Of a stretch of 64,000 nucleotides of DNA, positions 21,334-24,549 are shown piece by piece. This stretch comes from Alphaproteobacteria bacterium (lineage in GTDB: Bacteria; Pseudomonadota; Alphaproteobacteria; UBA8366; Aestuariispiraceae), in contig JASJDC010000011.1 of NCBI GenBank assembly GCA_030065235.1, positions 124,001 through 188,000 on the forward strand, in the 5' to 3' direction. Below the pieces are notes generated by a model. It was given only the letters and a program-made list of their open reading frames with translations, was not told the origin of the DNA and did not search any database. Position numbers and translations under genes: made by a program. Positions within the stretch are counted from its first letter, which is position 1. Every line of letters begins with the position of its first letter.

Positions 21334-24300
21334 CTATAGGTCTATTTCAATCACGCCGCCGGGTTTTGCAGCGCGCGACTGGCATAGGATCATCATTGTC
21401 TCGCGCTGCCTCTTGGACAAGACAAAATCCCTGTGTTCGACCGCGCCGGACAGATAGACGCAGACGCACACACCGCACAGCCCGTCGGAACATTTGATAT
21501 CGACCGGCACGCCGCTCGCATTCAGAACGTCCGCCGCCGTCTGGTGCTCGGGAACCACAATCTCGCGGCCTGAATTATGCAACCTCAGGGTGAAAGGGTG
21601 ATTGACATAGTCCGGGACCTCCGGCGTCGAGAAATACTCGAACCGGCGCGCCTCGTCGGGGAATCCGGCCGCCTCCGCCGCCGCAAGGACCGCTTGCATG
21701 TATCGATCCGGTCCGCAGGTATAGACACGCCATCCGGACTGATAGCCGCCGAGGACGGCGCCAAGCTCAGCGCGGCTTCCCTCATCGGAGAAGTGAAGCC
21801 GCACCCGGTCGCGCCAGGGCGCCGCCGCCAGATCCGCCAGGAACCCGGCGCCGGCCCGCGATTTCGCCGAATAGTGCAGCTCGAAATCCGCACCGAGCGC
21901 ATGCAGCCGATGGGCCATGGACAGCATCGGCGTGATACCGACGCCGCCGCCCATCAGGAAGCTTTTTGTCGCCCCTTCCTCCAACGGAAAATGGTTGATC
22001 GGCTTCGAGACGAAGATCTTACGGCCTTCGCTGAATATCCGGTGCAGCAGTTTTGACCCGCCCTTGCCATGATCCTCGCGCAACACGCCGATCTCGTAGC
22101 GTGACCGGTCCGCCGGATTTCCCGAAAGAGAGTATTGCCGCAGAAATTCAGGCGCGACGACGATGTCGAGATGCGCGCCCGCCTCCCATACCGGCAGTGG
22201 CGCGCCGTCGAGCGATTCCAGAACATATTTGCTGACATCCTCGGTCATCTTCTCGACCTTGGCGATCCGGACCCGGATCACCGGCGCGTCGCCCTCGACC
22301 CGGTATCGATGCGCCGCCGTGTCGATCTCACCCTTGGCCAGCCGGCGTTGATACGCCTCCGCCGTAATCAGCGCCTGATAGGCTTCGATCCCTTTCTCCC
22401 GATCCATGGCGTAGGGGAAGGGCCAGGGATGCGGGGCCAGGGACGCCGGATAGACCGCCAGGACCTGGTCCTCATATTTCAGGTCCAGGTCTTTCTGAAG
22501 GTCGCGCGCGTTGACCGGTTTCGTCGTCGGTCGATAACCGCCATCCTCCTCCAGCTCCAGATCCCACCACCATTTCTTCACCGGGTTCAGCCCGCCATTG
22601 CCCACTGCGTCGTCGAGTTTGGCGAGCAACGGCGCCGCGGCAGGCAGGTTCATCGCCGCCCAGCGGAAAGGCGTTTCTGCGAACAGGCCCTCCAGGTTCC
22701 AGGGGCAAGTCTTCATACAGCGCCCGCACATCGAGCCGCCTTCAGTCGTGATGCGATAGGTCGCGCATTTTTGGCTGTCCGACTTCCAGATCTCATAACC
22801 GTTGAACATCAGTTTCGGCCCGGCGGTGATGGCGCCGGACGGGCATTCGCGCGCGCATTTGTTGCAGCTCTCGCAGAAGTTCTGCATGCCGAAATCGATC
22901 GGCTTGTCATGGGCGAGCGGCATATCGGTGGTGACCACCCCCGACTTCAAGCGCGGTCCGAGATAGGGGTTGAGGATCACCTCGCCGATCCGGCTGACCT
23001 CGCCCAGTCCGGAAAGCAGCAAGAGCGGCGGTTGCAGCACCTCACCGTCCAGCACCGTGTGGGCCTTGGCCGTATAGCCGAGCCGACGGATCTGTTTGGC
23101 GATCACCCCGCCCAGCAGCGAGAAGCGCAAATAGGCGCGCATCGATTGCGCCACCGAAATCCAGTCGTCGCCGGACGCGCCCTCCATCGTCTCGTAACCC
23201 TGATCGATGATCATCGAAATCGCCTGATCGTGCGGCGGATCGATCGGCTCGCCGAGCGCGTCATGGGAGTACCAGGCCCAATCGGGGCAGCGCGACAGGC
23301 CGACCGCGTCCACCCCCAGGAAATAGGCGGCGGCCTTGATATTCTCGGCGTTGCGCTGCGGGTCCGCGGTCGAAGCGTCCGGCGCCCCTTCCGCCGGTCC
23401 GTCCTGCAACAGCACGAAGGCCCCCAGGGCCCGGCGCTGGGCCATCGACGGCGCCGCTTTGCGCGCGTAGTAGCCGCCTTTCGCGCCGTCTTGAAGCCGC
23501 TTGCCCATATCGCCGAATTGCGCGCGGGCGAACATGTCGGTTCTTTTCGGCACACGGGCGACGCGGGGCTCGTCGATATAGGTGGTCGGCGTATCGACCC
23601 GCTTCAGCCTTTCGAACGGATAGGCGCCGTCGACGAAGCGGCGGCGCACGTAGGGCTCCCTGTTCTGCGCGTTCTTGGCGAAACCCTTTCCGACCCACCA
23701 AGCGGGACCAAAGGCCCGAAACCAAGGCTGCTTATCGAGGGGCGCAAGCGGCCTGTCAGGGGCCAATGCAAACGTCGTCGTCACCGCCGCGACGCCGAAG
23801 CGCGCGCCCAGATAGGGATTGACCACCGCCCCCTCCTCGACGACCCCTAGGCCCGCTGCGACGGTGAGCTTGTTCAGATCGACATCGCTCTCCGCGCCCG
23901 AATGAGCCCGCGCGTCCCAGCCAAGCAACCGGATATAGTTGGCGATCACCGTCGCCGTCTCACTCGCCCGCAGACAGGCGCGGGCCGCCTGCGCATCCCA
24001 GATCCAGTCCGTCCCCGGCTCATCGCCGTCCGGATCGCGCGGATATTCATAGAGGAAGACGATGGCGTGCGTATGGCTGTCGATGTCGGTCGGCGGCGCC
24101 TCCATCGATTCCTTCAGGTCCGCCATGATGACGTCGATGCCGGACGCCAGGGTCTTGGTCTGTTTTGTGCGCAGATCCTCGGCCAGCCGATCAACGCCAG
24201 GATTACGGATCGGCGCCGCCAACAGCGCTTCCGGCGGCAGGGCGCAAACGCCGACCATCGACGCGTCGGAGAAATAGCCGAACGCCTTCAGATGCTCGGC

Positions 24301-24549
24301 GCGTTGTTGCGGGTCTTCGGGCGCGCCGGCCCGCGCCTCGTTGACCAAGCCTTCGCGGATCGCATCCATCATCGCCTGATAGTCCTGCATCGCGTTCACA
24401 ATGCTCAGCGGCGCCGACGGCCGGTCCAGAACGAGGGGCGCCATCGCCGGCGTCGTCGACAAATCGACGGGCCCGTCAAAGCGCGCCAGCCGTTCCAGCG
24501 GATATGGCCCCAAATGAACCGGACGATCCTTGTCGGAGAAGAAGCGCAT
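21334..24549 (-). CDS. Self-sufficient reductive dehalogenase (RdhA fused to flavin/2Fe-2S reductase)
   Basis: A 1071-residue cytoplasmic enzyme with no Tat signal. Residues about 10-290 are a degenerate RdhA-like module; about 300-640 are the active cobalamin module with two 4Fe-4S motifs (Cys559/562/565/569 and Cys608/611/615 with Cys595); about 750-980 are an FNR-type reductase (RQYS at 804-807, GGGVGITPM at 868-876); about 985-1071 are a plant-type 2Fe-2S ferredoxin (Cys1020/1025/1028/1056). Tyr473, Lys535 and Arg599 share the spacing I recall for Tyr426, Lys488 and Arg552 of NpRdhA. The architecture matches the aerobic catabolic dehalogenases such as BhbA, which remove ortho-halogens from phenolic acids with NAD(P)H. 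The ribosome site is weak. pobA follows, so halogenated 4-hydroxybenzoate is the likely substrate. Confidence 0.93.

Follow-up and report, generated by a model that had tools for sequence, protein, structure and literature searches.

The rdhA–pobA locus and the architecture of RdhA

The DNA analysed was a stretch of 64,000 nucleotides (hereafter the window) from an alphaproteobacterium of the family Aestuariispiraceae (assembly GCA_030065235.1, contig JASJDC010000011.1, positions 124,001 to 188,000), and the subject of this report is a gene, rdhA, for a reductive dehalogenase of 1071 residues, together with the adjoining gene pobA for 4-hydroxybenzoate 3-monooxygenase (Table 1). The rdhA open reading frame (ORF) is intact over 1071 codons from its ATG on the minus strand, and stops interrupt the plus strand when it is translated from 21334. 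The pobA gene has the same orientation as rdhA and begins 16 nt past its stop. RdhA is very probably a cytoplasmic, NAD(P)H-driven catabolic enzyme of the BhbA and JtRdhA kind, carrying out the ortho-debromination of phenolics, and 4-hydroxybenzoates are, with fair confidence, its natural class of substrate.

Table 1. Positions in the window of rdhA, pobA and the functional elements of RdhA
Feature	Position	Strand	Evidence
rdhA, predicted self-sufficient catabolic reductive dehalogenase, 1071 aa	21334..24549	minus	TIGR02486 216.4 bits; 4RAS E 2.2e-168
Predicted vestigial first copy of cobalamin-binding core, about residues 157-270 (approximate limits)	23740..24081	minus	4RAS alignment
Catalytic cobalamin core with two 4Fe-4S sites, residues 443-661	22567..23223	minus	4RAS 320 bits; PceA 4UQU 112 bits
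Tyr473 (NpRdhA Tyr426, presumed proton donor)	23131..23133	minus	4RAS alignment
Lys535 (NpRdhA Lys488)	22945..22947	minus	4RAS alignment
4Fe-4S motif 1, residues 559-569	22843..22875	minus	cysteine positions
Arg599 (NpRdhA Arg552)	22753..22755	minus	4RAS alignment
4Fe-4S motif 2, CGRCMKTC, residues 608-615	22705..22728	minus	cysteine positions
Phthalate-dioxygenase-reductase module with flavin, NAD(P)H and 2Fe-2S ferredoxin domains, residues 757-1071	21337..22281	minus	2PIA E 1.2e-54; Fer2 Pfam match
pobA, 4-hydroxybenzoate 3-monooxygenase, 392 aa from ATG	20139..21317	minus	TIGR02360 668.2 bits, cut-off 538.7

A preliminary description of this DNA, made from the letters alone and naming no strand, had proposed a single dehalogenase of this length, and the NCBIfam model TIGR02486 ('reductive dehalogenase') agrees with it, the score being well over the cut-off of 160.35. 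No protein of 14 control genomes exceeded this cut-off, and weak matches were found in 11 of them. The Pfam search of RdhA at E ≤ 0.001 gave no dehalogenase model; its four matches were to ferredoxin-type models and one reductase-like model. By phmmer, RdhA matched the whole chain of NpRdhA (4RAS), with residues 157-738 lying on 4RAS residues 111-694. Since residue 1 of RdhA pairs with residue 1 of the 4RAS chain, the rdhA start is credible.

As judged from alignment, the N-terminal half contains a vestigial duplicate of the B12 domain, as catabolic RdhAs typically do. Residues 157-270 of RdhA run along the N-terminal half of 4RAS in the alignment, the catalytic core used as a lone query finds the first half of 4RAS too, and a second TIGR02486 match was detected at 23746-24318 (39.8 bits), which is under the cut-off and alone not specific, matches of such weakness being found in the controls. 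At the other end, residues 757-1063 gave matches both to phthalate dioxygenase reductase (2PIA) and to the reductase parts of self-sufficient P450s. The sequence RQYS at residue 804 and the cysteines 1020, 1025, 1028 and 1056 are presumably the flavin motif and the 2Fe-2S motif, respectively, of this reductase family. The fused flavin-NAD(P)H reductase and 2Fe-2S ferredoxin of the preliminary description were thus recovered. Its claim that no export signal is present also held at the level of motifs: no twin-arginine motif RRxF[LI] was found in RdhA by a motif search made without a signal-peptide predictor, and the start coincides with that of 4RAS. This set of features is that of the self-sufficient subfamily in the sense of the JtRdhA study (PMC10463259).

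Catalytic and cluster residues

RdhA residues 462-667 were aligned with 4RAS residues 415-620 without a gap and at a constant offset of 47, and therefore Tyr473, Lys535 and Arg599 correspond to Tyr426, Lys488 and Arg552 of NpRdhA, exactly as the preliminary description had it. In the NpRdhA report, K488, R552 and S422 contact the phenolic oxygen and Y426 is the presumed proton donor (PMC7565698). The cluster cysteines of RdhA are located at 559, 562, 565, 569, 595, 608, 611 and 615, all eight at the positions given beforehand.

Conservation was examined in the best 80 of 544 stretches that encode some relative, obtained by a scan of GTDB species genomes. The window protein and 79 of these relatives were aligned, one locus (L055) being left out as it is cut by a contig end, and Tyr/Lys/Arg and all eight cysteines were invariant throughout the 80 rows. 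Chance resemblance is excluded by this invariance of Y/K/R together with the E-values. After addition of eight fused proteins from other genomes, Ser469, Met470, Tyr473, Lys535 and Arg599 were invariant in all 88 fused rows, and likewise in six NpRdhA-type rows (NpRdhA and five others); the same residues are kept in BhbA and in the protein of Nitratireductor sp. OM-1. The Lys535 column is occupied by Arg in both solved PceA enzymes (4UQU and 8Q4H), which bears out the earlier reading of Lys in place of Arg as the mark of the catabolic type. It is highly improbable that this copy has lost its function or been turned to another use, such as that of an NADPH oxidase or a different cobalamin reductase: against this stand the intact frame, the invariant catalytic and cluster residues and the 69-79% identity to relatives from many lineages, nearly all aligned end to end.

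Comparison with characterised dehalogenases

The alignment with BhbA (plasmid pBHB of Comamonas sp. 7D-2, WP_015585978.1), which the preliminary description had proposed as a check, gave 52.1% identity from end to end. BhbA likewise consists of 1071 residues, is an RdhA-reductase fusion and shares the S/M/Y/K/R residues of the active site, but its second shell is Phe/Ser/Ser/Ala instead of Met/Tyr/Val/Val. The surroundings also differ, bhbA being carried by a conjugative plasmid next to extradiol ring-cleavage genes and a gene for a tripartite tricarboxylate transporter protein, whereas rdhA is followed by pobA, and pcaHG is located on another contig. NpRdhA of Nitratireductor pacificus (PDB 4RAS, 6ZXU, 6ZXX, 6ZY0 and 6ZY1) carries the same catalytic residues and is 44% identical to RdhA across 556 positions within its residues 111-694, but is devoid of the reductase module and differs at Phe290, Phe310, Ala419 and Asn452. 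PceA (4UQU, 8Q4H) shares the B12/4Fe-4S core, to which the phmmer matches are confined, one stretch in each, and differs by the Arg at the Lys535 column; its role is respiratory, and it is exported by twin-arginine translocation (TAT).

JtRdhA of Jhaorihella thermophila (WP_104007082) is comparable by its published description, which lists the lack of a TAT signal, a duplicated B12 domain, two 4Fe-4S clusters, a fused phthalate dioxygenase reductase and the equivalents of Y426, K488 and R552 (PMC10463259). The same source describes NADPH-dependent turnover of bromo- and iodo-phenols, in the presence of air as well, and a broad range of substrates including 3,5-diiodo-4-hydroxybenzoate, iodophenols and tetrabromobisphenol A (PMC10463259). 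By analogy with JtRdhA and BhbA, the RdhA under study would be active and would function in air. The Roseobacter debrominase Ros_A3X954, reported in 2026, was not used as a proxy for the same subfamily, as its cluster motifs differ (CDICTKCADACP) (PMC13101508).

Second-shell pocket and expected halogen preference

Beyond the first shell, the pocket of RdhA is formed by Met339, Tyr361, Val466 and Val499, at the positions of Phe290, Phe310, Ala419 and Asn452 in NpRdhA. Among the 88 fused rows, position 339 is Met in 81, Phe in four and Leu in three; position 361 is Tyr in 87 and Phe in one; position 466 is Val in 86 and Ala in two; and position 499 is Val in 87 and Ser in one. All four residues occur together in 78 of these rows. 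The six NpRdhA-type rows carry Phe, Phe, Gly (five) or Ala (one), and Asn.

The study of NpRdhA reports activity on 3,5-dichloro- and 3-chloro-4-hydroxybenzoate, places Ala419 in the lining of the second-halogen pocket and describes a shift of preference toward mono-halogenated substrates by A419M (PMC7565698). JtRdhA is described as an enzyme that debrominates and de-iodinates, chloro-analogues being merely inhibitors; the reason was left open by its authors, who note, close to the site of the second bromine, only minor substitutions of a conservative kind (PMC10463259). A range covering chlorinated as well as brominated hydroxybenzoates, as in NpRdhA, agrees with the identity of every first-shell catalytic residue, but is rather improbable for the present enzyme, because its pocket differs from that of NpRdhA at all four positions and JtRdhA, with the same fused architecture, is merely inhibited by the chloro-analogues. 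For the same reasons, the conserved catalytic spacing does not imply the same substrates. By analogy, bromo- and iodo-activity would be expected and chloro-activity is doubtful. The chloro-4-hydroxybenzoates named for assay in the preliminary description may thus well not be turned over. Its self-sufficient catabolic RdhA with NpRdhA-like catalytic residues stands, and the adjoining pobA and the wide spread of the family had been overlooked. The pocket signature being common to most of the fused clade, the puzzle of halogen selectivity raised by JtRdhA becomes testable by mutation.

Proposed pathway through PobA

The pobA product was the only match over the TIGR02360 cut-off in the genome, and one of the 14 control genomes had a match over this cut-off. 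On another contig (C10), pcaH and pcaG were identified over their cut-offs, together with a pcaB-like gene. The genome also carries cobN over its cut-off, which is consistent with its own synthesis of cobalamin but is not proof of it.

Cobalt-halogen contact, a proton from the Tyr-Lys pair and NADPH as donor are described in the accounts of NpRdhA and JtRdhA (PMC7565698, PMC10463259). On this model, the C-terminal reductase of RdhA would transfer hydride from NAD(P)H to flavin, and single electrons would reach base-off cobalamin from the flavin by way of the 2Fe-2S cluster and both 4Fe-4S clusters. The phenolic acid would have its ortho-halogen seated on cobalt and its phenolate held by Lys535, Arg599 and Ser469, and Tyr473 would donate the proton while the halide leaves. 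The likely natural substrate would be 3-bromo- or 3,5-dibromo-4-hydroxybenzoate, iodo-analogues being possible. The resulting 4-hydroxybenzoate would be converted by the adjacent PobA to protocatechuate, which would be opened by the ortho-cleavage genes elsewhere in the genome. The adjoining pobA suggests brominated 4-hydroxybenzoate as the best guess for the substrate, and also that the dehalogenated product serves the cell as a nutrient. We infer that the two genes are transcribed as an operon, and that the enzyme has the halogen preference given above and delivers its product to PobA.

The principal alternative is that an enzyme of the same class acts on another natural substrate, such as simple bromophenols, bromotyrosine-derived 3-bromo-4-hydroxyphenylacetate or other marine bromophenolics, pobA being a neighbour by chance or only indirectly connected. 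The range of JtRdhA is broad, and the enzyme enables an E. coli strain to grow on 3-bromo-4-hydroxyphenylacetate (PMC10463259); in addition, the neighbours of rdhA vary strongly from genome to genome. The end product of BhbA is reported, however, as 4-hydroxybenzoate (PMC13101508), and rdhA and pobA lie side by side in several orientations more often than expected by chance (see below). This alternative is possible, but is the less likely of the two, and the assignment to brominated 4-hydroxybenzoates is preferred.

A number of observations weigh against the proposed pathway or the assignment on which it is built. No PobA match at E ≤ 1e-20 was found for 76 of the 80 relatives in the flanking DNA available, some of the flanks being short (at least 400 bp downstream of rdhA in 78 of 79 loci and upstream in 77 of 79). 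In one other family of the class, no PobA was detected at E ≤ 1e-130 in 25 of 98 genomes with the enzyme; taken with the previous count, 4-hydroxybenzoate is therefore not an obligatory product throughout the RdhA family. In that same bacterial family, PobA was present in 73 of the 98 genomes with the enzyme and in 91 of the 150 without, a weak association (odds ratio 1.89; p 0.028, with no correction for relatedness). In the genome of the window, the PcaB-like protein falls slightly under the curated cut-off of TIGR02426, and the best match to BtuB scores far under the cut-off of that model. A Pfam scan of 30 of the 131 listed ORFs of the window revealed no recognisable transporter for a halogenated acid next to rdhA. 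Finally, an AlphaFold model built from 24 sequences (the window protein and 23 relatives) had a predicted local distance difference test (pLDDT) score below 50 at residues 507-533 and 554-622. A Foldseek search with this model ranked NpRdhA first (E 2.7e-53, TM 0.74 by target), at a root-mean-square deviation of about 10 Å, and no pocket geometry is claimed because of this deviation and the poor quality of the model in the catalytic core.

Association of rdhA and pobA in other genomes

The tandem arrangement of rdhA and pobA was found in three of the 80 relatives (L031, L036 and L038), with 9 nt from stop to ATG, and in a further locus (L048) pobA is located directly upstream of rdhA, bringing adjacency to four of 80 loci. 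In the other family described above, at least three genomes have the two genes less than 400 bp apart, convergent at about 240 bp (G494), divergent at about 350 bp (G617) and in tandem at about 80 bp (G647). At least three adjacencies were thus present among the 73 genomes of this family having both genes, as compared with about 0.04 expected by chance, a rough post-hoc figure that assumes 4,000 genes per genome. Outside these sets, Nitratireductor sp. OM-1 carries rdhA, a protocatechuate dioxygenase gene and pobA inside a stretch of about 8 kb, with rdhA on one strand and the two other genes on the opposite one. Plasmid pBHB includes, near bhbA, ligAB as well as a stretch that matches PobA at residues 115-392 only; this stretch (L162:5827-6657) lies beside ligA and has no listed gene in the incomplete table of PLSDB. 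The plasmid records of Jannaschia sp. M317 and Ruegeria sp. TM1040 gave no PobA match within 4 kb.

In an even draw of genomes across the class, PobA was present in all eight of the other fused-RdhA genomes and in 50 of the 376 without the fused enzyme (p 1.8e-7). Genome-wide co-occurrence was nevertheless rejected as proof of a pathway, as four of the eight belong to a single PobA-rich family (164 of 248 genomes) inside which the association is weak. A conserved neighbourhood was also rejected: apart from ORFs overlapping rdhA, no gene family (defined by at least 35% identity over 60% of length) was common to more than nine of the 80 rows within 6 kb. As far as titles and the openings of abstracts in the open-access literature go, with few subscription papers covered, no description of the rdhA–pobA tandem was found, and no claim of its being unpublished is made.

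Distribution of fused RdhA

By title, the 80 relatives are mostly from Alphaproteobacteria, with four from Gammaproteobacteria and one labelled Flavobacteriales, and many of the genera are marine. The rdhA of the locus labelled uncultured Flavobacteriales (L077) is almost identical to a copy from Rhodobacteraceae (L082; end branches 0.001 and 0.003), and L077 is perhaps a mis-binned contig. In the single family surveyed in depth, 98 of 248 genomes had a match at E ≤ 1e-150, the best match being nearly end to end in 96 and partial in two (G519 and G522). The class-wide draw at the same threshold yielded the fused form in nine of 385 genomes, including that of the window, and the NpRdhA type in one. 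Among 43 genomes of the order to which the window belongs, at E ≤ 1e-100, the fused form was present only in the genome of the window, and four others carried the NpRdhA type; the latter proteins (L147, L148, L150 and L151, of genomes G004, G038, G005 and G039, respectively) are of about 700 residues and without reductase. Putative bhbA homologues are stated to be widely distributed in the Roseobacter clade (PMC13101508).

As a representative of a known and abundant family this rdhA is unremarkable, and the presence of the family is patchy in the order of the window. The protein adds one sequence to a characterised, widespread family, and the more useful point is its context: a clean rdhA–pobA pair, in a genome whose 42 order-mates have the NpRdhA type (four) or nothing at that threshold.

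History of the pair

In a quick tree of 58 PobAs (eight located beside rdhA and 50 others; beyond the three adjacent ones, further matches from the other family were not added), the four tandem PobAs formed one clade, with a support of 97 by the Shimodaira-Hasegawa-like approximate likelihood ratio test (SH-aLRT). Of the eight other PobAs from the family of the window, six fell in a separate deep clade, one (G007) was nearer and one (G004) grouped with another family. The tandem clade being apart from most of these, the window pobA appears unlike the usual copy of its family. For RdhA, a quick tree was made from 22 hand-picked rows among the 88 fused ones, and a single clade of the four tandem RdhAs was rejected (approximately unbiased test, p-AU 2.35e-05). 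A single origin of the tandem was not kept as a claim, the PobAs being monophyletic and the RdhAs not; the tandem is either old and broken up in other lineages, or was formed more than once, and both fit these trees.

Foreign base composition was considered for the pair and rejected. The G+C content at third codon positions (GC3) was 0.79 for rdhA and 0.78 for pobA, as compared with 0.78-0.83 for six other genes of the window, and neither overall G+C nor GC3 of the pair stands out; composition therefore gives no support for recent acquisition. A wider proposal is that rdhA–pobA represents a minimal two-gene cassette for salvage of brominated 4-hydroxybenzoates, which marine Alphaproteobacteria would repeatedly have put together or retained, and that the fused-clade pocket Met339/Tyr361/Val466/Val499 confers bromo/iodo specificity, in contrast to the chloro-competent NpRdhA. 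In this full form the proposal is speculative and would more probably fail than hold.

Other genes in the window

Divergent from rdhA across about 330 bp, at 24877-26183 on the plus strand, are a gene for a sigma factor of the extracytoplasmic function (ECF) type and a following gene of 252 codons. The product of the latter gave no Pfam or NCBIfam match at E ≤ 0.001, and is perhaps the anti-sigma factor of the former. A few kb from pobA, at 14657-17862, a gene for a Maf-type glycosyltransferase was identified on the plus strand and one for a PseC-like aminotransferase, slightly under its NCBIfam cut-off, on the minus strand. At 9678-12044 on the plus strand, the window encodes a multihaem cytochrome c of 788 residues with 12 CXXCH motifs, for which the Pfam matches were to MtrC/MtrF and cytochrome c3/c7.

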